From Thiotrichales bacterium (GTDB lineage: Bacteria; Pseudomonadota; Gammaproteobacteria; Beggiatoales; Beggiatoaceae), in the NCBI GenBank assembly GCA_016745035.1, contig JADGDE010000001.1, forward strand, positions 782,507-846,506: a DNA stretch of 64,000 nucleotides. Reading direction: 5' to 3'. The notes beneath the pieces are model-generated. The model did not search any database and was not told the origin of the DNA. It saw only the letters and a program-made list of their open reading frames with translations. Positions 6,135 to 18,222 of this stretch are shown here, piece after piece. How positions within the stretch are numbered: the stretch's first letter is position 1; the number at the start of each line of letters is the position of its first letter. The position numbers and the translations under genes were made by a program.

Positions 6135-7380
6135 CCTTGTGCAAGCGGTCACACAGTGCGACATCTGGGATAGCGATTAATTCATCGCCTTGATACAACA
6201 AGGGCAAATAGGGGCGCAACCACGGGGCTATATCGGCTTGTTGGAGTAGGTTTTTAACGGTTTTCTCTTGCCTATAATAACGCAGCCGCTCGCCGCCTTG
6301 GCGTAGTCGCACCGTCAAAGGGGCTAAGGTCTGCCAAGTGCTAAGATTAGCCTTAATACGCAATTCCCCCGCGCCGATGATAAGTGGCTGAGATAGGTCT
6401 TGCCAAAGCCATGTTTGTTGCTGGGGCAAAGCGGGGAGTTGCTGTTGCAAATACAGCGCGCCACGATAGCAACGGATTTCATAATCTTGCCATTGTAATA
6501 ATAATTGCGTATCGGTTCGCTGGTTAAAACTGGCTTGTAAATTATGCAAGCGGGCTTGATTGGGGCTGGGAAAGCCCGCTTGTTGAATCCAATAGCGTAG
6601 CACATGACGTTGGCGTATATCGCTCAAACCCTCTACAGCCGATAGAGACAAACGCCTTTGTGCCAACAAACAATGTTGATAATCCGCCTCGGTTAATTCT
6701 GCCAGTAATTGCACATGCTCGGCTTGATGTTGCGCGGCGCGATTTAAACTTTTCACCGCGCCTTGCCAACGGCTCGTGAGTAAGGGCATGATTTGCTGGC
6801 GTAAATAATTTCTATCAAAGCGCAGGTCTTGATTACTGGGGTCTTCTATCCACTGCAGTTGCGCGGCTTGAGCATAGGCTTGTAAACTGGCTTGCGAGCA
6901 AGTTAATAAGGGGCGCAGTAAAAAACCTTTTCCCAAAGCGCGCTGCTGGGGCATGGCTGCTAAACCTGCGGCGCTGCTGCCGCGCAATAATTGCAATAAT
7001 AAGGTCTCGGCTTGGTCATCGGCATGTTGGGCTGTGAGCAGATAATCCCCTGCACTGAGTTTAGCTGCAAAGGCTCGATAACGCCCCGTGCGCGCCAAGG
7101 CTTCGATGCTCTCCCCTGTACTGGGGTTCAAATGCAGATGCACGACTTCTAAGGCAATGCCTAGCTCATCACACACGTGTTGGCAATGTTTGACCCAGTT
7201 ATCAGCAACGGTTTGCAAACCATGATGAATATGAATGGCTTTTAGTTGTTGTGTTAAGGGCATCGTTGCCAAACTGTGCAGCAACACATGTGAATCCAAG
7301 CCACCGCTATAGGCGACCCATAAAGTGCTTGTCTCTGGGAGTTGCTGAATTTGGCTTTGAATCTGGCTTGAAATTGACAT
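6085..7380 (-). CDS. tilS: tRNA(Ile)-lysidine synthetase
   Basis: TilS ligates lysine to C34 of tRNA-Ile2 (CAU), switching it from Met to Ile identity; it is normally essential. The 431-residue protein shows the PP-loop AYSGGLDSHVLLH near residue 20, the IHHGLQ motif, the QHADDQAETLLLQLLRG motif, and the C-terminal VRLRQGGERLR and KTVKNLLQQADIAPWLR segments of the tRNA-binding domain. The chosen ATG at 7380 overlaps the stop of the upstream integrase by one base (TGATG), so translation is probably coupled. A longer frame would run into the integrase gene. The 3' end overlaps truB by 50 bp on the other strand. Confidence 0.95.
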   Translation of the reverse strand: MSISSQIQSQIQQLPETSTLWVAYSGGLDSHVLLHSLATMPLTQQLKAIHIHHGLQTVADNWVKHCQHVCDELGIALEVVHLHLNPSTGESIEALARTGRYRAFAAKLSAGDYLLTAQHADDQAETLLLQLLRGSSAAGLAAMPQQRALGKGFLLRPLLTCSQASLQAYAQAAQLQWIEDPSNQDLRFDRNYLRQQIMPLLTSRWQGAVKSLNRAAQHQAEHVQLLAELTEADYQHCLLAQRRLSLSAVEGLSDIRQRHVLRYWIQQAGFPSPNQARLHNLQASFNQRTDTQLLLQWQDYEIRCYRGALYLQQQLPALPQQQTWLWQDLSQPLIIGAGELRIKANLSTWQTLAPLTVRLRQGGERLRYYRQEKTVKNLLQQADIAPWLRPYLPLLYQGDELIAIPDVALCDRLHKAMPAGLVSLSFQVQAR

Positions 7381-8576
7381 CAGTCGTTGACGCTGGCTTG
7401 TAAACCATCGAGCCAATCGGCCCAAGCTTGCATCATCTCGCGGCGCTCGTCCAAGTATTGCGTGCGGTTATAAGCCCGCCCGTTGGCATCTCTGACTGCG
7501 TGGGCGAGCTGCATTTCAATTGCTTCAATTCGATAGCCCAAGATTTCATCCAAATTGGTACGTGCCATCGCCCGAAAACCGTGAGCGCTCATTTCGTCTT
7601 TGCTATAACCCATGCGCCGCAATGCGGTGTTTAAGGTGTTATCACTCAAAGGTTGTTGGCGTTGGTGCATAGCATGAAACACATAGGGACTATGGCGAGC
7701 AGTCACGGGTTTGAGTTTTTCTAAAATGCTTAAGGCTTGCTTGGATAAGGGCACTAAATGATCGGTTTTCATTTTCATTTTATGCGCGGGAATCAGCCAT
7801 AAGGCTTTGTCAAAATCAATTTCATCCCAGCGGGCGTTGCGCAATTCACCGGGGCGAGTAAACACCAAAGGCAAAAACTGCAAGGCACAGCAAGTAATAA
7901 AACGCCCCTGATAGGCGTGAAGCGCCTGTAATAACGGCCCGATTTTTATCGGTTCGGTAATTGAGGCATAATGCGAGCCGCGTACTTTTGAGAGCGCCCC
8001 GCGCAAATCACGACACGGGTCACTGTCAGCCAAACCAATGGCGACGGCATAGCGAAACACTTGCCCGCAGACTTGCAAAACGCGATGGGCGGTATCAACC
8101 GCGCCACGGGCTTCGACTTTACGCAAGACTTGCAAGACCTCGGGCGGTTTGATTTGTCCCGGCGGGCGATTGCCTAACCACGGAAACACATTGGCTTCCA
8201 AACGCCGCAGCAGAATATGCGCATGTTTCTCTGACCAGTGCGGCACTTGTTTGCTGTGCCATTCGCGGGCAAGGGCTTCAAAGCTGTTGAGGGCTTCGGC
8301 TTTGCGGGCTTGTTTTTGTGCTTGCTTATGAGCGCTGGGGTCGATGCCATCGGCAAGTAATAAACGCGCCTCAGCGTGTTTTTGCCGGGCTTTTTTTAGC
8401 GGGATTTCAGGATAAACGCCGATAGATAAGGTTTTTTGTTTACCGTTAAAACGATAGCTATAACGCCAATATTTGCCGATGGGTTTGATAAGTAAAAACA
8501 AGCCGCCGCCATCAGAGAGTTTATAGGTTTTATCTTGGCGCTTGAGATTACGGATTTTGACATCAGTCAAGGGCAT
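7380..8576 (-). CDS. P4-type tyrosine recombinase / integrase
   Basis: A full-length 398-residue integrase of the P4/DUF4102 class. It has the arm-binding N-terminal domain (KLSDGGGLFLLIKP, GVYPEIPLKKAR), a core-binding domain, and a C-terminal catalytic domain with the expected residues: Arg in FTRPGELRNARWDEID, HGFR (His-x-x-Arg), the His of LAHAVRD, and the nucleophile Tyr in RAYNRTQYL. Such enzymes usually integrate islands at tRNA genes. Here it sits 12 bp downstream of prmA and its stop overlaps the tilS start, with no tRNA, att repeat or cargo visible on either side. All catalytic residues are present, so it is not obviously decayed. It may be the last remnant of an island or a domesticated recombinase. 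By eye it is more GC-rich than its neighbours. Confidence 0.93.
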   Translation of the reverse strand: MPLTDVKIRNLKRQDKTYKLSDGGGLFLLIKPIGKYWRYSYRFNGKQKTLSIGVYPEIPLKKARQKHAEARLLLADGIDPSAHKQAQKQARKAEALNSFEALAREWHSKQVPHWSEKHAHILLRRLEANVFPWLGNRPPGQIKPPEVLQVLRKVEARGAVDTAHRVLQVCGQVFRYAVAIGLADSDPCRDLRGALSKVRGSHYASITEPIKIGPLLQALHAYQGRFITCCALQFLPLVFTRPGELRNARWDEIDFDKALWLIPAHKMKMKTDHLVPLSKQALSILEKLKPVTARHSPYVFHAMHQRQQPLSDNTLNTALRRMGYSKDEMSAHGFRAMARTNLDEILGYRIEAIEMQLAHAVRDANGRAYNRTQYLDERREMMQAWADWLDGLQASVND

Positions 8577-10125: not shown

Positions 10126-10338
10126 TTAGCTGGCGCTACTACGCGCGTATTTACGACGGAATTTGTCAACACGTCCAGCGGTATCAATGATTTTTTGCTT
10201 GCCGGTGTAGAAAGGGTGACAAGCTGAGCATACGTCTAAATGCACTTCTTTTTCTAAAGTAGAACGGGTGGTAAAGGTATTACCACAGCTACAACTTACG
10301 GTAATGTCTTGGTATTGTGGATGGATATCCGCTTGCAT
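10126..10338 (-). CDS. rpmE: 50S ribosomal protein L31 (zinc-binding type)
   Basis: A 70-residue L31. The start [20 protein letters not shown] and the [13 protein letters not shown] segment are diagnostic. The cysteines near residues 16/18 and 37/40 make this the zinc-binding (C+) form. L31 sits at the subunit bridge of the 50S particle. It is transcribed toward ispF, 82 bp away. A leader and promoter should lie in the 378-bp gap upstream. Confidence 0.97.
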
Positions 10339-10716
10339 GGTCAGCCTCTTTTAATAAAACCCAACCTGAACTCTTCTCTCTAAAATCTCAACAGAGCCTA
10401 AAGCTAAATGCTGGATAATTCGTCCGACATCGCCTGATGTTGTCCGTCGAATTCAAGTTAATGGAAAAAAACCGAGTAATTTTAACAAAATAATGCCAGA
10501 GACTCAAATAAAATCTTGAGGCTACAGCCATTTTTATTTTGGACGCAATGTCGCAATAATTAGCGCTCCTAACTGAATGTTACGCATATGCTAGCTTTTA
10601 AAATTTAAACGGGTTTAGAATTAAACCGCCAAAACCCTAACGCATTTGTTTGTAGTGAAAATTAAACTGCTTGTGGCACAATAAGCAGGTTTTTCTGTAA
10701 AAATCATAAGGCCGAC
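10339..10716. other. Divergent intergenic region (rpmE / globin) with an imperfect inverted repeat
   Basis: This 378-bp region separates rpmE (minus) from the globin operon (plus), so it must hold both promoters. An imperfect inverted repeat spans about 10417-10454 (AATTCGTCCGACATC ... GATGTTGTCCGTCGAATT). A lone AACTGAATGTTACGCAT at about 10575-10592 resembles one end of the 84-bp repeat family described elsewhere, but I see no matching second end. No confident -35/-10 pair was picked. Confidence 0.35.
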
Positions 10717-11592
10717 ATGGACAATAAAATACAACAACGCTTACAAGTCAAAGCCTGTATTGAAGAAATCAAAGACATTGATGAGTTATCGCGTTTATTT
10801 TTTCGGGAATTATTTCACCTTGATGTCAGTTTAGAACATCTTTTCCCTGGAAGTGTGTTGGTATTGAATCGTAAATTTGCCAATATGCTTAACACCTTAA
10901 AAAATGTGAAACACCTAGAAAAAATCAGTGATTCACTTGCGAGTATGGGCGAGCGTCATTTACAAAAATATGGGGTAAAAGTTGAGCATTTACCATTGGC
11001 GCAACACGCTTTACTTGCTGCTTTAGAAGCCTATCCTGCGGTCAATTTAGCAGAAAATAATCTTAAACATGCTTGGGAAAATGTTTTTAATGATGTTGCT
11101 GACTTAATGATAGCGGCCATGCAGCAAAGTGATTCCAGTGATGTGCAGCTAAATACGTATACTTGTAGTCATCCACATTTTTTAGCTGACATTGGCGGCG
11201 AGGAGGTGGTCACGCGGGTACATGAGCGTTTTTATGATGTGATGTTTGAGCATCCATGGTTAGAAGGTTTTTTTTATGGCAAATCCAAATCTTCGTTGAT
11301 TATGAAACAATCCCAATTTATGGTTGCAGCTTTTGGCGGCAAAAATGAATACCAAGGCGATACCCCCGCTTTTGCACATATGCATATGTTTATCACTGAC
11401 GCGATGCTTGATGAGCGTCAACACGTTTTGCGTGCCGCGATTTTAGCGGAAGGTTTAAGCCCGGATGAGGCGCAATATTGGCTCGACGTGGATGACAGTT
11501 TTAGAAGTGGTATTGCTAAACAAGATGTGTCCGAGTGTGTAACCAAATGTCCGGGGCAATTTCCATTGGTGGTTAAAGACAGAAAAAATTGA
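10717..11592 (+). CDS. Tandem globin protein (globin domain plus truncated-hemoglobin domain)
   Basis: A 291-residue soluble protein with two heme-globin domains. Residues ~10-135 resemble a classical bacterial globin, with a probable proximal His at H81 in MGERHLQKYGV followed by the ALLAALEAYP helix. Residues ~150-270 resemble a group I-like truncated hemoglobin: IGGEEVVTRVHERFYD, AAFGGKNEYQGD, and a probable proximal His at H221 in FAHMHMFITDAMLD. Domain assignment rests on pattern recognition. It begins a same-strand run with a REC-kinase, a FIST (NosP-like) protein and a hybrid kinase, which suggests sensing or buffering of O2 or NO for that pathway. There are no transmembrane or DNA-binding segments. 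Confidence 0.8.
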   Translation: MDNKIQQRLQVKACIEEIKDIDELSRLFFRELFHLDVSLEHLFPGSVLVLNRKFANMLNTLKNVKHLEKISDSLASMGERHLQKYGVKVEHLPLAQHALLAALEAYPAVNLAENNLKHAWENVFNDVADLMIAAMQQSDSSDVQLNTYTCSHPHFLADIGGEEVVTRVHERFYDVMFEHPWLEGFFYGKSKSSLIMKQSQFMVAAFGGKNEYQGDTPAFAHMHMFITDAMLDERQHVLRAAILAEGLSPDEAQYWLDVDDSFRSGIAKQDVSECVTKCPGQFPLVVKDRKN

Positions 11593-11665
11593 AAAAATGC
11601 GACCCGTGCGTCACATTAAGTTGCATACGCCTCACCTTTTATTCACCCAAACACCGCACCCTGCT

Positions 11666-12760
11666 ATGAAACATACCATTTTGGTCGTTGATGATACCCC
11701 TGAAAACTTGGATATGATGAGCGCATTATTGCTGCCTGATTATCAAGTCAAACTCGCGACCAACGGCAAGATGGCGCTTAAAATTATTGAAGGGCAACAA
11801 CCCGATTTGGTTTTACTCGATGTCATGATGCCTGATATGGATGGCTATGAAGTTTACCATCATATTGTGAATGATTTGGGTTATGCACATATGCCGGTTA
11901 TTTTTGTCACCGCCAAAGCTGAATTAGAAAGCGAAGTGTCTGCTTTAGCTATGGGTGCGGTGGATTACATCACTAAACCCATTCGTGCCGAAATTCTCAA
12001 AGCGAGGATTCACACTCAATTACAATTACGCGATGCCTATCAAACCATCGCCGCACAGAATCTAGAATTAAAAAAGAGTCTATCTTTACGTGAGAATATT
12101 GAGCGTATTAATCGCCATGATCTCAAAGCGCCTTTAAACATTGTCTTGAATGTCCCTGAGATGCTAAAAGAAGAATTAACACTGGATAGCGAGCAATTAG
12201 AGCTTTTAAATCTGTTAGAAAAAGCTGGCAAACAAATGCTCAATATGGTCAATAATTCTCTACAGCTTTACCATATTGAAACGGGTAAATATGAAGCACA
12301 GCTCGATACGATCAATGTTATTGCTTTATTAGAGCAAATTATTCAAGAACAACAAGCCGCTGGACTGGCACAAAATATCCCCATTGATTTAAACCTAAAT
12401 CCGCCTGATTTTTCCGGCTCGATTATTGCCGAACGGGTATTGTGCTATAGCATTTTTAGTAATTTATTAAAAAATGCCTTGGAAGCTTCTCCCGCTGGTG
12501 GCTATGTAAATATAGATATAGAACCAAACACGCGTTGTCATATTCAAATATGTAATCAAGGTGCAGTGCCTGAAGCACTGATACCGCATTTTTTTGAAAA
12601 ATATATCACCGCAGGTAAACAAGATGGCACAGGTCTTGGTACGTATTCAGCCAAACTCATGACCGAGGCACAAGGTGGCCATATCAGTATGAAAAGCTCA
12701 CAACAAAAAAATTGTACCTGTGTTGCTCTCAGCTTTCCTTTAAATCAAGGAGACAATTAA
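11666..12760 (+). CDS. Soluble REC-HisKA-HATPase histidine kinase
   Basis: A 364-residue protein with a response-regulator receiver at the N terminus (VVDDTPENLD; phospho-acceptor D52 in LVLLDVMMPDMDG; Thr/Lys of VTAK and ITKP) and a kinase core behind it. The H-box is RHDLKAPLN with H151, the N-box NLLKNALEAS, and the G-box GTGLGTYSAKLM. The order is opposite to usual hybrid kinases: the receiver comes first and can gate the kinase. No membrane segment is present. The ATG at 11666 directly precedes the conserved KHTILVVDD strand; an earlier in-frame ATG at 11597 would add 23 atypical residues. Its stop overlaps the FIST start by one base (TAATG), so the two are likely co-translated. Confidence 0.88.
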   Translation: MKHTILVVDDTPENLDMMSALLLPDYQVKLATNGKMALKIIEGQQPDLVLLDVMMPDMDGYEVYHHIVNDLGYAHMPVIFVTAKAELESEVSALAMGAVDYITKPIRAEILKARIHTQLQLRDAYQTIAAQNLELKKSLSLRENIERINRHDLKAPLNIVLNVPEMLKEELTLDSEQLELLNLLEKAGKQMLNMVNNSLQLYHIETGKYEAQLDTINVIALLEQIIQEQQAAGLAQNIPIDLNLNPPDFSGSIIAERVLCYSIFSNLLKNALEASPAGGYVNIDIEPNTRCHIQICNQGAVPEALIPHFFEKYITAGKQDGTGLGTYSAKLMTEAQGGHISMKSSQQKNCTCVALSFPLNQGDN

Positions 12761-13893
12761 TGTCTGCATATGTGCGTCGTGCTGCTGTCAATGGCTTTGA
12801 TATAAACACCACACTTGCAAGCTTAGCGACACAATTGCAACAAGATAAGCTGGGGGGCATTATTTTCTTTTGCTCGCCTAAGTATGATTTAGAACAATTG
12901 GCAATGGCGCTTAAACAGCAGTTTGATTGCCCGCTTTTGGGTTGTACTGCCGATAATGGTTTAGGGCTTGGTGAGCAACACCATGATTTAGTCGCCTTAA
13001 GTTTATCGGCTAATATGTTTCACATGCATGTACGTGGTATCGAGCAAATAGATAAATTCACGGCACAACAAGCACAACAGCTGGTTAATGATATTCAAAC
13101 ACAGTTAGCCTTTTCACCTTATTTAGATCATGAAAAAATGTTTGTGTTTAGTTTGATTGATGGTTTATCTCAATGTGAAGAACATATGGTGTCCTTTTTG
13201 TACCATGCTTTACAGGGCATTCCGTTAATTGGTGGCTCTGCCAGCGATCATTTTACTTTTACAAAAACGGCTGTTTTTGCAGGTGATCGGTTTTGTGAAA
13301 ACGCAGCAGCACTGGCGCTGATTGAAACCAAATTACCCTTTGAGGTGTTTAAATTCCAGCATATGCAACCTTTGCTTGAACAAGAAATGGTGGTCACAGA
13401 TGCTGATCCTAAGCGACGCATTGTCTATGAAATCAATGGTGAAATTGCTGCTAAGGAATATGCCGATTTAATTCAAATCAGCCCAGATCAATTAACCCCA
13501 GCTATTTTTTCAAAATATCCACTAATGTTACAAATGGGCGATGATTGGTTTGCGCGGGCAGCGGGTTACCCTTTAGCTGATGGCAGTTTACAGTTTTATT
13601 GTGCTATTGAGGCGGGTATCCCCTTAACATTAGCTAAGACAGGCAAACTGGTCTCGACTATGGCTGAGCAGTTTTCGACATTAAAACAATCTTTTCAAGA
13701 AGTTGTTGTCACCTTAGGTTGTGATTGTGTGTTTAGGCAATTGGAGTTATCAAGCTGCCCTGAATCAGAGCAAGCAAACTATAGACAAAACCTACAAAAC
13801 ATGAATTTTGTCGGCTTTAGTACCTATGGTGAGCAAATTAATGGTGTGCATGTCAATCAAACTATGACGGGCATTGTATTGGGGCTAAAATGA
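12760..13893 (+). CDS. FIST-domain sensor protein, NosP-like
   Basis: A 377-residue protein with FIST_N and FIST_C domains. Visible marks are the [10 protein letters not shown] segment (typical LxGCSTxGxI position), [11 protein letters not shown] (FIST_N end), and [20 protein letters not shown] at the C terminus (typical FIST_C GFSTYGE motif). Proteins of this type encoded next to a hybrid kinase are known as NosP; they bind heme and NO and control the kinase. The ATG at 12760 has an AAGGAG ribosome-binding site 7 bases upstream and overlaps the preceding stop. Its own stop overlaps the next gene by 4 bp (ATGA). Heme binding itself cannot be read from the sequence. Confidence 0.88.
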
Positions 13894-15857
13894 GCAAAGT
13901 AGCACAGCTTGAACAAGAAATTGTCGACTTAAAACAAGCGCTGCTTAAACGTGACAAAATTAATGCCGCCCTGTTACGTCGAGTTAAACGCAACCTTGGC
14001 TCAGCTGGGGGATCTTTTGCTGTATTTGAACATAACATCACTTTAAGTCAAGAAGTCGAGCAGCAAACCCAAGCGCTACGAGAAGCGAAGCTCAGTGCTG
14101 AAAGTGCCAATCACGCTAAAAGTCGTTTTTTAGCCAATATGAGCCATGAAATCCGTACACCGCTGAATGCCATTATCGGACTGAGCCATTTAAGTTTACA
14201 AACCGAACTTAGCCCTAAACAACGTGATTATTTAGAAAAATTACAAATATCTGCCGAATCTTTATTTGATTTACTCAATGATATTTTAGATATTTCCAAA
14301 ATTGAATCGGGTAAAATGGTCTTAGAACAACGCCCCTTTGCGACAGAAAACCTATTCAACCACATCCATTCACAACTTGAAAATCAAGCGTTACAAAAAA
14401 ACTTAACATTTATCGTCGAAATAGCCGATGATGTGCCGACATGGCTCTCTGGTGACGAGTTGCGTTTACGTCAGGTGATTGTCAACCTTTGCAATAATGC
14501 GATTAAATTTACCGAACAAGGTCAAGTTTTGTTGCGAATATCTCTCAGCCAACAATATCAACAACAAGTGCAGCTTTTATTTGAAATAAAAGATACGGGT
14601 ATTGGTATTAGCCCAGAGCAACAATTATATTTATTCAAACCCTTTACTCAAGCCGATGACTCCACCACTAGGCGCTATGGTGGTACGGGGCTGGGGCTTG
14701 CTATTTGTCAACAATTAACAGAAATGATGGGCGGCGCAGTCCATGTACAAAGCCAATTAGGACAAGGCACGTGTTTTTGTTTTGAACTCAAATTCCCTCT
14801 GCCTGACGACAAGCATATTTTTGAACAAAAACAACCTGCGCTTTATCACAAGCTCAATGCCGAACAGCAACAAGCGCTGGCAGAAAAACGGATTTTATTA
14901 GTAGAAGATAACGAAATTAATCAAGAAGTGGCTTATGAAATTCTTCGTAAAAAAAATCTTAGCGTCGATATTGCTAATAATGGTGCAGAAGCGCTGTCTT
15001 TATGTCAAAACCAGCGTTATGACGCAATTTTAATGGATATTCAAATGCCTGTGCTTAATGGGCATCAGGCCACAGAAAAAATTCGTCAATTAGCAGGCTA
15101 CGAAAACATGCCTATTTTGGCAATGACTGCGAACAATACCAAAGAAGATCAACAAAAAAGCCGACAGGCTGGCATGAACGATCATATTGCCAAACCGATT
15201 AATCCCACCGAATTATTTGCGGTCTTGAGCCATTGGCTTGCCCCTGACTTAACGCCAAATAAACCCTCTGTTCATCGAGTTGAATACCGCACCAATACCC
15301 ACGAAGACTTACGTATGGTGTTGGATAATCAGCCATTACAGCTAAAGCTCTTAAATAAATTTGTTCTCAGCAATGCGGATGTGTTTGAAAAAATACGCAC
15401 AGCCGATACCACTGAGGCGCAATACCTTGCACATACCATCAAGGGGACGGCTGCTAATTTGGGCGCAACGCGCGTATCTGATTTAGCGCAACAAATCGAA
15501 CAACTACTAACAGAACAGCCAGAGGATCAACTCACACGAGATGAATATTGCCAACGGGCTATGCAGGCTTTTGTACGTTTACAAAGTCAAATCAAACAGC
15601 TTTCTGAACGCATTCACAAACCAAATATCCAACCCAAGCCACAAGTGACAAGCTTATCAACCGCGCAAAAAGAAAGCCTGAAGCAGCTACAAACGTTGCT
15701 CAAAACCTATGATGCTGAAGCCAAACCGTGTTTAGAGCAATTACTCGATCAAGCATTACCCTCAGCACTAGAAACTCAATTGCAGGCGGTATTGAAAAAA
15801 TTAGAACGCTATGATTTTGATGCCGCTTATCAATCGCTGGATTTGAGTGCGATATAA
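13890..15857 (+). CDS. Hybrid histidine kinase with REC and HPt domains (NahK-like)
   Basis: A 655-residue cytoplasmic phosphorelay kinase. The N-terminal coiled coil ([15 protein letters not shown] then [13 protein letters not shown]) matches the stretch I recall from kinases encoded beside NosP. It is followed by HisKA ([18 protein letters not shown]86), HATPase (N-box [24 protein letters not shown]), a receiver (D383 in [13 protein letters not shown]) and an HPt domain (H515 in [15 protein letters not shown]). So the full His-Asp-His relay lies in one chain, and a separate output regulator is expected elsewhere. No PAS or transmembrane domain is present, so the signal probably comes from the FIST partner, with which it overlaps by 4 bp. 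Confidence 0.92.
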
Positions 15858-15952: not shown

Positions 15953-15988
15953 TTGACAGTATAAAACCTGAGTATTATACTCAGGTTT
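15953..15988 (+). promoter_or_regulatory. Consensus sigma-70 promoter overlapped by a 25-bp perfect palindrome
   Basis: TTGACA (15953-15958), a 17-bp spacer and TATACT (15976-15981) form a near-perfect housekeeping promoter reading toward rpoH. A perfect palindrome with half-site AAACCTGAGTAT around a central T covers 15964-15988 and so masks the -10 box: a repressor operator by position. The half-site CCTGAGTA is reminiscent of Rrf2/IscR-type sites, but the regulator is unknown. The transcript would carry a leader of about 165 nt before rpoH. Confidence 0.75.
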
Positions 15989-16155: not shown

Positions 16156-17007
16156 ATGAGTTTAGCCTTTTCTCTGACTGTACCTGGTCAAAATATTGAA
16201 AGCTATACCCAAGCGCTAAAAGCGATTCCTATTTTAACCGTTGAAGAAGAACAACAATTAGCGATCCAATATCGTAACAATGAAGACACCGAAGCGGCAC
16301 GGACTTTGGTCATGTCGCATCTGCGTTTTGTGGTACATATTGCCCATAGTTATCGCGGTTATGGTTTGCCTCATGCTGATTTAATCCAAGAAGGCAATAT
16401 TGGTTTGATGAAAGCGGTTAAACGTTTTGACCCAGAAGTGGGTGTGCGTTTGGTCTCGTTTGCAGTGCATTGGATTCGTGCTGAAATTCACGAATATATT
16501 TTACGTAACTGGCGGATTGTCAAAGTGGCAACCACTAAAGCACAACGTAAATTGTTTTTTAACCTGCGTGGTGCAAAAAAACGTTTAGGTTGGCTTAATG
16601 CCAAAGAAGTGGACAAAATTGCTGATGACTTAGGTGTTACCAGTAAAGATGTGCGTGAGATGGAAATGCGCCTGAGCATGGGTGATGCGGCTTTTGATGG
16701 TTCTTATGATGATAACGACGAGGGCGAAGCACTGACACCAGCAGCTTACCTTGAAGATAATCGTTTTAATCCAGAAGAGCATGTTGAAAACCATGAATTC
16801 CGTGAACACGGTAACAAACGTTTGCGTGATGCCTTGGCACAACTTGATGAGCGTAGTCAGGATATTTTGACAAAACGTTGGTTAAGTGAAGACAAAACCA
16901 CTTTGCAAGTATTGGCAAAACAATACAATATTTCAGCTGAGCGGATTCGTCAAATTGAAAAAAATGCCATGCAAAAAATGAAAAAAGCCTTGGTTGCCTC
17001 AGCTTAA
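16156..17007 (+). CDS. rpoH: RNA polymerase sigma-32 factor
   Basis: The 283-residue protein is the heat-shock sigma factor. Region 2 reads [20 protein letters not shown] and [21 protein letters not shown], the RpoH box is [16 protein letters not shown], and region 4 ends in [21 protein letters not shown]. Regulation looks unusual: a consensus promoter masked by a 25-bp palindrome lies about 175-200 bp upstream, and a perfect CIRCE element just before the gene. An ATCGGGAGTAAA ribosome-binding region precedes the ATG. A strong terminator follows 26 bp after the stop, so the gene is monocistronic. Confidence 0.97.
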
Positions 17008-17078: not shown

Positions 17079-17732
17079 TTAGTCTTCAGCTTGCACTCGA
17101 CCCAAACCTTGTGACCACCAAGAGCGGTTTAAATAATAAACCAAAGCTAAAGGCAAAAATAAAACCACACAATACAACAAGGCGCTATAACTCATGCCAA
17201 GCATCTCCGCTTGCCAAGGGTAATAAGGTTTAAGATAAGTATTGATATGGGTGTTGCTAAAGACATAATAGCTATGTCCATCTGTTAGCGCGGATATTAA
17301 TTTTTCACTTAACCACAAACCTGTCAATAAAACGATGGCTAAAGCCATGCTGGCTGTGCCAATGGCTAAATGTTTCAAGCGCTGCTGAGGAACAGCAAGC
17401 AATAAAGCCCAAAGAATTGGCAAACCCAAGCTTATATTTTCTGGGGCTTTTTTTAGCGCCAGATTAAGCAAATGACGTTTATTTGGATCGCTGGGTTGTT
17501 CTGGCATCAATACCCGTGTATTAATAACCCAATCACCATTAGCTTGCACCTGTAATTGCGCATACAAATGATCAAAGCCTTGTCGTAACCACAGTTCTGT
17601 GCTGAGCTGTAAAAACGGGACAATGACTATCGGCAATAAATACCACCAAAGTAAAATCGCCAATATTAGCCAAGCACTGGCACGTAATACTAGCCAAACA
17701 AGTGCCTGAATATTATGCGTTTGCAAGTTCAT
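17079..17732 (-). CDS. Exosortase H-associated membrane protein
   Basis: A 217-residue membrane protein with about four hydrophobic helices: near the N terminus (WLVLRASAWLILAILLWWYL), mid-protein (LPILWALLLAVP; IGTASMALAIVLLTGLW) and near the C terminus (SALLYCVVLFLPLALVYYLN). It overlaps the exosortase gene by 20 bp, and a membrane partner of this size regularly accompanies XrtH exosortases. A soluble loop with VNTRVLMPEQ lies between the first and second helices. The function is inferred only from this partnership. Confidence 0.7.
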   Translation of the reverse strand: MNLQTHNIQALVWLVLRASAWLILAILLWWYLLPIVIVPFLQLSTELWLRQGFDHLYAQLQVQANGDWVINTRVLMPEQPSDPNKRHLLNLALKKAPENISLGLPILWALLLAVPQQRLKHLAIGTASMALAIVLLTGLWLSEKLISALTDGHSYYVFSNTHINTYLKPYYPWQAEMLGMSYSALLYCVVLFLPLALVYYLNRSWWSQGLGRVQAED

Positions 17733-18222
17733 GACTTTCTTTCTGAGTCGGTAAAACTAACCACAACCAAGTAATAAAGGCAATGATAACGGCAAAGTGT
17801 AATAACAAGGGCCACAATAATTCATGTACGACATCAAATTGTGTCCGCTCAAAGAAAACGCCGACGTATAACAGGCTAACAATACGGATTAAATTTAGCG
17901 CTTGAATAAAGCATAAACCGACGATTAAACCAATTAACTTCACATTCCAAGTTGCCGGATAACTCAATACGGCTGCCAGCCATAAAGCACAAATGGATAA
18001 GGCACTGCACACCTCTGTGATTTCCAGCGCAAACCCCGTGGGGGTATGACGAATAATCGCAGCGCTTAAACTAACTTGGTCATCAAATAATTGTATTAGC
18101 CAAAAACTGCTGTTTGCTAAACCCAGACAAAAACTATCGACCGCAGGCTTGATAGCCTCTAATTCTAAAACCCCCAGCAGGGCAATAGTTAAGAGAAAAA
18201 ACAAAGTTAAAAAGCGTAGCAT
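17713..18222 (-). CDS. xrtH: Exosortase, XrtH type
   Basis: A 169-residue integral membrane protein with the three exosortase catalytic positions: Cys C72 in ITEVCSALSICALW, Arg R113 in LNLIRIVSLLYVG and His H133 in DVVHELLWPLLL. Exosortases recognise short C-terminal sorting signals on exported proteins and cleave them. The small size and the associated membrane protein point to the XrtH subgroup. An AAAGGA site lies just before the ATG. No protein in this window carries an obvious matching sorting tail, so its substrates are elsewhere. Confidence 0.82.
   Translation of the reverse strand: MLRFLTLFFLLTIALLGVLELEAIKPAVDSFCLGLANSSFWLIQLFDDQVSLSAAIIRHTPTGFALEITEVCSALSICALWLAAVLSYPATWNVKLIGLIVGLCFIQALNLIRIVSLLYVGVFFERTQFDVVHELLWPLLLHFAVIIAFITWLWLVLPTQKESHELANA

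Follow-up and report, generated by a model that had tools for sequence, protein, structure and literature searches.

A conserved two-globin protein adjoins a NosP-like locus in one Beggiatoaceae genome and recurs beside Roadblock and small-GTPase genes elsewhere

A link between bacterial globins and Roadblock/LC7 domains has been described in HGbRL from Methylacidiphilum infernorum (3wfw and 3wfx), in which the two are fused in one protein (PMC4476040). In the closed form of HGbRL the heme is ligated by Lys52 (E10), and its authors suggested that the globin signals through the Roadblock domain (PMC4476040). No description of a bacterial 3/3–2/2 globin fusion was found in the open-access literature (e.g. 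the globin paper PMC1457004). Here we consider such a fusion in a 4.18 Mb genome from the same family as Candidatus Venteria ishoeyi, within a stretch of 64,000 nucleotides (the window).

The region 10717-15857 of the window contains four ORFs, all on the + strand, which encode a globin fusion, a REC-HK, a FIST protein and an HK-REC-Hpt kinase (Table 1). Both the ORFs and their Pfam domains bear out what a previous interpretation made from the letters alone (the sequence-only reading) had observed, including a kinase with its receiver at the N-terminus (ORF2, REC, HisKA and HATPase) and the overlap of stops and starts across the last three genes, which is exact (TAATG at 12758-12762 for ORF2/ORF3 and ATGA at 13890-13893 for ORF3/ORF4). 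That reading also held the arrangement to be non-standard, and we found no description of it in the open-access literature. ORF1 lies outside the overlap chain, 73 bp from the probable start of ORF2 at 11666, or 4 bp from the in-frame ATG at 11597. No + strand terminator-like site was found between ORF1 and ORF2, and GC3 is alike in all four genes (0.345-0.356); this spacing and matching composition also fit a single operon of common function.

A promoter search gave 15 sites against 15.3 +/- 4.0 by chance, so no excess, and an RNA family search returned one tRNA and nothing else. Near matches to TTGATNNNNATCAA (FNR/DNR-type, 2 mismatches) are more numerous over the whole window, 1-64000, than expected (100 vs 53 +/- 8); they sit mostly within genes, and the surplus is perhaps due to codon usage. 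FNR/DNR-type sites were set aside because none, at the same two mismatches to TTGATNNNNATCAA, occurs in 10188-10716. Elsewhere in the window, a strong sigma-70-like site (15953-15988, TTGACA-17-TATACT, 11/12) overlaps an 11-bp hairpin between the ORF4 kinase gene and an apparent rpoH (16156-17007). On the - strand are Exosortase H (97.9 bits, above the cut-off) with an exosortase H-associated membrane protein (17079-18222), and what is by sequence a phage-type tyrosine integrase with no obvious element around it (7380-8576).

Table 1. Genes, domains and heme-pocket residues of the four-gene locus.
Feature	Position	Strand	Basis or remark
ORF1, tandem globin: 3/3 globin + group-1 truncated haemoglobin	10717..11592	+	291 aa; Pfam, predicted fold, alignments
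ORF2, REC-HisKA-HATPase kinase	11666..12760	+	domain matches; start 11597 also possible
ORF3, NosP-like FIST/FIST_C protein	12760..13893	+	domain matches, NosP profile score
ORF4, NosP-type hybrid kinase HisKA-HATPase-REC-Hpt	13890..15857	+	domain matches, N-terminal region
N-terminal 3/3 globin	aa ~3-137 of ORF1
C-terminal group-1 truncated haemoglobin	aa ~154-269 of ORF1
Conserved C-tail ECVTKCPGQ	aa 273-281 of ORF1		Cys274 invariant in family
H81, proximal His F8, N-terminal globin	10957..10959	+	invariant in 14 orthologues
K53 (E10), N-terminal globin	10873..10875	+	invariant
Y173 (B10), truncated haemoglobin	11233..11235	+	aligned to Tyr33 of HbN
Q198 (E11), truncated haemoglobin	11308..11310	+	aligned to Gln58 of HbN
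H221, proximal His F8, truncated haemoglobin	11377..11379	+	aligned to HbN His81; invariant

By sequence and by predicted fold, both domains of ORF1 are real globins. The N-terminal domain matches PF00042 (Globin) with 26.6 bits (cut-off 22) and the C-terminal domain PF01152 (Bac_globin) with 37.2 bits (cut-off 21), and both families are matched by 14/14 aligned orthologues. An AlphaFold2 model built from 14 orthologues (mean pLDDT 82) has two complete globin folds, with residues 3-133 resembling Hell's Gate globin I (3s1i; Z 17.1, rmsd 1.9 over 129) and residues 154-269 resembling the truncated haemoglobin of P. caudatum (1dlw; Z 17.0, rmsd 1.6 over 116); the latter domain also aligns to HbN (entry 1s56) with Z 16.8. 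The proposed fusion of a classical globin with a truncated haemoglobin therefore withstood structure prediction, the check that had been suggested for it. ORF1 has no FAD/NAD reductase domain, the C-terminal part being the truncated haemoglobin (PRK13289, 25.7 bits against a cut-off of 432), and no Roadblock domain according to Pfam.

H81 and H221, previously named as candidate proximal histidines, both align to F8, H81 by comparison with Hell's Gate globin and 3/3 globins. Together with K53, Y173 and Q198 they are invariant across 14 orthologues. In HbN of M. tuberculosis Tyr33 is B10, Gln58 is E11 and His81 is F8, which is consistent with the mutant chains listed. The N-terminal domain has F29 and L50 at B10 and E7, not the Tyr/Gln pair of NO-dioxygenase-type globins, and in other members of the family B10 is mostly Tyr and E7 mostly Leu, with Gln E7 missing in nearly all. 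Gas scavenging, which had been suggested for the fusion, is doubtful for this domain because Gln(E7) and, in ORF1, Tyr(B10) have been lost; its residues seem suited to regulation rather than O2 chemistry. The suggestion holds up better for the C-terminal domain, which looks like an ordinary group-1 pocket and could scavenge by means of its HbN-type Tyr/Gln pair.

Orthologues of the fusion are present in many Beggiatoaceae, Methylococcales, Oceanospirillaceae and Zetaproteobacteria, and for the most part the carriers oxidise sulfur, methane or iron. Among named genomes a full-length fusion occurs at 13 loci (Thiotrichales/Beggiatoaceae, Methylococcales, Marinobacterium and Zetaproteobacteria). 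Genome samples, which were drawn and not exhaustive, added 4 further genomes at the level of the class (369 genomes) and, at that of the phylum (398 genomes), 15 besides the window's own, one match being a fragment and several of the carriers being the same genomes as in the named set. One Zetaproteobacterial family accounts for 14/15 of these phylum-sample carriers. No full-length relative was found in viral contigs or in plasmids. The two-globin proteins form a conserved and apparently undescribed family.

The neighbourhoods of 27 fusion loci (the window and 26 others) were read out to 8.5 kb, although some contigs end near the fusion gene and the Zetaproteobacterial loci are related, not independent. 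Within this range FIST lies near the fusion at a single locus, that of the window. FIST domains are absent altogether from 11/20 of the other carrier genomes, and in 9/20 they are on a different contig. Conversely, five related genomes and a second site of the window genome have NosP and kinase pairs that no fusion adjoins. The sequence-only reading had made the fusion part of a NosP circuit and had proposed a search for the gene order in other genomes; as far as sampled, the globin-FIST order is unique to the window genome, an outcome that it had itself listed as contrary. On comparative grounds, the functional link to NosP fails because of this uniqueness, and the placement of the fusion beside a NosP locus is peculiar to the window genome.

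The genes downstream have relatives of their own. ORF3 scores above the cut-offs for FIST (140.9 bits) and FIST_C (59.8 bits), and at full length it reaches 361.8 bits against NCBIfam NosP, below the equivalog cut-off of 450; another FIST of the window genome reaches 453.2 bits. Two of its ten His residues (His201 and His364) are common to all 8 NosP-type sequences aligned, and no NosP relative was found by sequence among solved structures. These scores suggest that ORF3 is a divergent NosP. ORF4 carries canonical H, D and Hpt motifs (SHEIRTP, DIQMP and HTIKG), and from about residue 8 it is 39-41% identical to the NosP-adjacent kinases at loci L027 and L052-L054 and 35% identical to those at L050 and L051. 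It scores 197.6 bits against NCBIfam near_NosP_CTERM (cut-off 400), and it shares its region before HisKA with NosP-linked kinases. The sequence-only reading was right to see a NosP-family FIST protein and, after it, a kinase of the NosP type. Orthologues of ORF2 (about 38-47%) lie beside an ORF4-like hybrid kinase at 11/15 loci, none with a globin or FIST, and the pair is apparently a conserved relay cassette. Across the window's bacterial family such pairs (L098-L112, 11/15 loci) are widespread, and the sensor end of the hybrid kinase varies. It is likely that NosP controls ORF4, the Hpt domain of which would phosphorylate the receiver of ORF2.

A different neighbourhood recurs around the fusion. 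Roadblock/LC7 genes are present at 10/27 fusion loci, usually along with a Ras/MglA-like small GTPase, a metallophosphoesterase and an ABC1-type kinase, and gaps are sometimes 5-34 bp. A Roadblock-like gene of class RBc precedes the fusion in L092 (5-bp gap) and in L090 (9-bp gap), and in Marinobacterium (L041) the GTPase, Roadblock, phosphoesterase and fusion genes succeed one another in this order on one strand, the last after a gap of 33 bp. The neighbour GTPase profile matches MglA and Rab proteins. Class RBb is above the Roadblock Pfam cut-off, and RBa and RBc resemble it weakly in profile comparison. The predicted structure of RBa (pLDDT 85) has a Roadblock/MglB fold (Z 17.2 to 3kye and 16.7 to MglB), from which RBa is taken as Roadblock/MglB-like, and RBc is probably Roadblock-like, given its position and weak similarity. 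The module as seen in Zetaproteobacteria and Marinobacterium (L041 4929-8867; L092 5074-14835; L044 8936-16838) has up to three Roadblock/LC7-like classes, the MglA-like GTPase, the metallophosphoesterase, the ABC1 kinase and two uncharacterised proteins, cl8 (weakly similar to DUF2621) and cl10.

Mapped onto a tree of 26 fusions, linkage to Roadblock takes five changes, and therefore it is not one inherited synteny block. The chance of linkage this extensive is below 1e-4, a rough figure on the assumptions that clades are independent and that each genome has a single module. Among solved structures, those nearest to the N-terminal globin include the natural globin-Roadblock fusion 3wfw. The repeated small-GTPase neighbourhood suggests a gas-responsive role other than NosP sensing. 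Against a GTPase partner, Roadblock and FIST are both missing from the neighbourhood at 16/27 loci (at one of which the GTPase alone is present), and the closest relatives of the window (Ca. Venteria, Thiotrichales) belong to this group; the one GTPase-Roadblock pair of the window genome is ~690 kb from the globin. This pair (L065 7868-11081; contig C11, ~102.9-106.1 kb) comprises the sole Pfam-detected Roadblock gene and an MglA-like GTPase; a REC-HK paralogue of ORF2 (27% identity) lies on that strand too, farther upstream. Genome-wide co-occurrence in the phylum sample (GTPase in 15/16 fusion carriers vs 42/382 others) was set aside as proof because the carriers are nearly all Zetaproteobacteria and because, in the window's own family, 32/42 genomes have the GTPase but only 3 the fusion.

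The explanation that we favour, at slightly better than even confidence, is that the two-globin family is independent of NosP and provides a soluble two-heme sensor of O2 or NO (or of redox state), which usually partners a GTPase module and has here been set before a NosP relay. The ligand would bind in the C-terminal HbN-type pocket, and the N-terminal heme, with its invariant Lys E10 and no Gln E7, would switch between ligand-bound and internally ligated states; together these could alter the shape of the fusion, and a partner protein would respond to the change. For the lineages in which a partner can be proposed, it would be the Roadblock/LC7 and MglA-like GTPase module. In the window genome a lineage-specific rearrangement may have put the fusion gene upstream of an NO phosphorelay, in which the signal would pass from NosP to HK-REC-Hpt and, via Hpt, to REC-HK. 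Two separate units, a gas-sensor globin and a relay of NosP, hybrid kinase and REC-HK, make the most economical description, and co-transcription may couple them in this genome. We think it doubtful that the fusion, as a two-heme sensor of gas, directly controls an MglA/MglB-like GTPase switch (in Zetaproteobacteria and Marinobacterium, and in this genome perhaps in trans) and has in addition been wired to the NosP phosphorelay in the window's lineage.

Two other accounts must be weighed against an independent sensor with a GTPase partner. The fusion could be functional in the NosP circuit, buffering or scavenging NO/O2 and so leaving sustained NO alone for NosP to detect, with the four genes as one operon. 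Such a circuit is functionally plausible and suits the shared strand, the gap of at most 73 bp free of + strand terminators and the closely matching composition, but we rate it as distinctly improbable in view of the 0/26 other fusion loci with FIST, the 11/20 FIST-free carriers and the NosP/kinase cassettes, in five related genomes and at the second site here, that are without the globin. Slightly less improbable, though still unlikely, is that the fusion serves chiefly as an enzyme or a carrier, either an NO dioxygenase or an O2 store for microaerophiles, with no part in signalling and with incidental neighbours. The metabolism of the organisms that carry it would suit this, as would above all the HbN-type set of Tyr B10, Gln E11 and His F8 in the second domain, which counts against sensing without scavenging. 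However, the locus has neither a reductase domain nor a reductase gene, Gln E7 is missing from the N-terminal domain of almost every member, as is Tyr B10 from that of ORF1, and Roadblock and GTPase genes are repeatedly linked to the fusion. The preference for sensing over scavenging is read from the residues.

If the fusion did control a GTPase switch directly, the reading that we think doubtful, polarity, motility or another GTPase output could come under the control of O2 or NO in microaerophiles that live in gradients. The recurrent operon-level linkage to Roadblock and GTPase genes, taken with HGbRL, would make gas-controlled small-GTPase switching in bacteria directly testable. The 3/3 and 2/2 globin fusion is a conserved family although it was not found in the globin literature searched, and the present case illustrates that inferring a circuit from the gene order of a single genome can mislead.

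Each of the known systems resembles the locus in part. HGbRL is among the closest solved relatives of the N-terminal globin and shares with the fusion Lys E10 and the link between globin and Roadblock/LC7; in ORF1, however, the second domain is a truncated haemoglobin and Gln E7 has been lost, and Roadblock, where it neighbours the fusion in other genomes, is encoded by a gene of its own. The 3/3 fold and F8 His of the N-terminal domain are shared with Hell's Gate globin I (3s1i; 29% identical over 129 residues) and with the single-domain and flavohaemoglobin-type globins, whereas ORF1 has Phe B10 and Leu E7 for Tyr and Gln, is fused to a 2/2 globin and carries no reductase. The second domain shares with HbN (1idr) Tyr B10, Gln E11, His F8 and the fold (Z 16.8), but E15 is Met and not Phe, and the domain is part of a fusion with a conserved Cys-containing C-terminal tail. 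As in NosP-NahK and NosP-NosK (PMC12570481, PMC8846402), a FIST protein adjoins a soluble histidine kinase; here the FIST is below the NosP cut-off, there is an additional REC-HK and no c-di-GMP enzyme, and a globin gene lies in front. In other genomes the fusion has a GTPase and a Roadblock protein as neighbours that resemble MglA and MglB by sequence and by fold, but their module differs from the MglA-MglB GTPase/GAP switch in its extra phosphoesterase, ABC1-kinase and globin genes, and in the window genome it lies apart from the globin.
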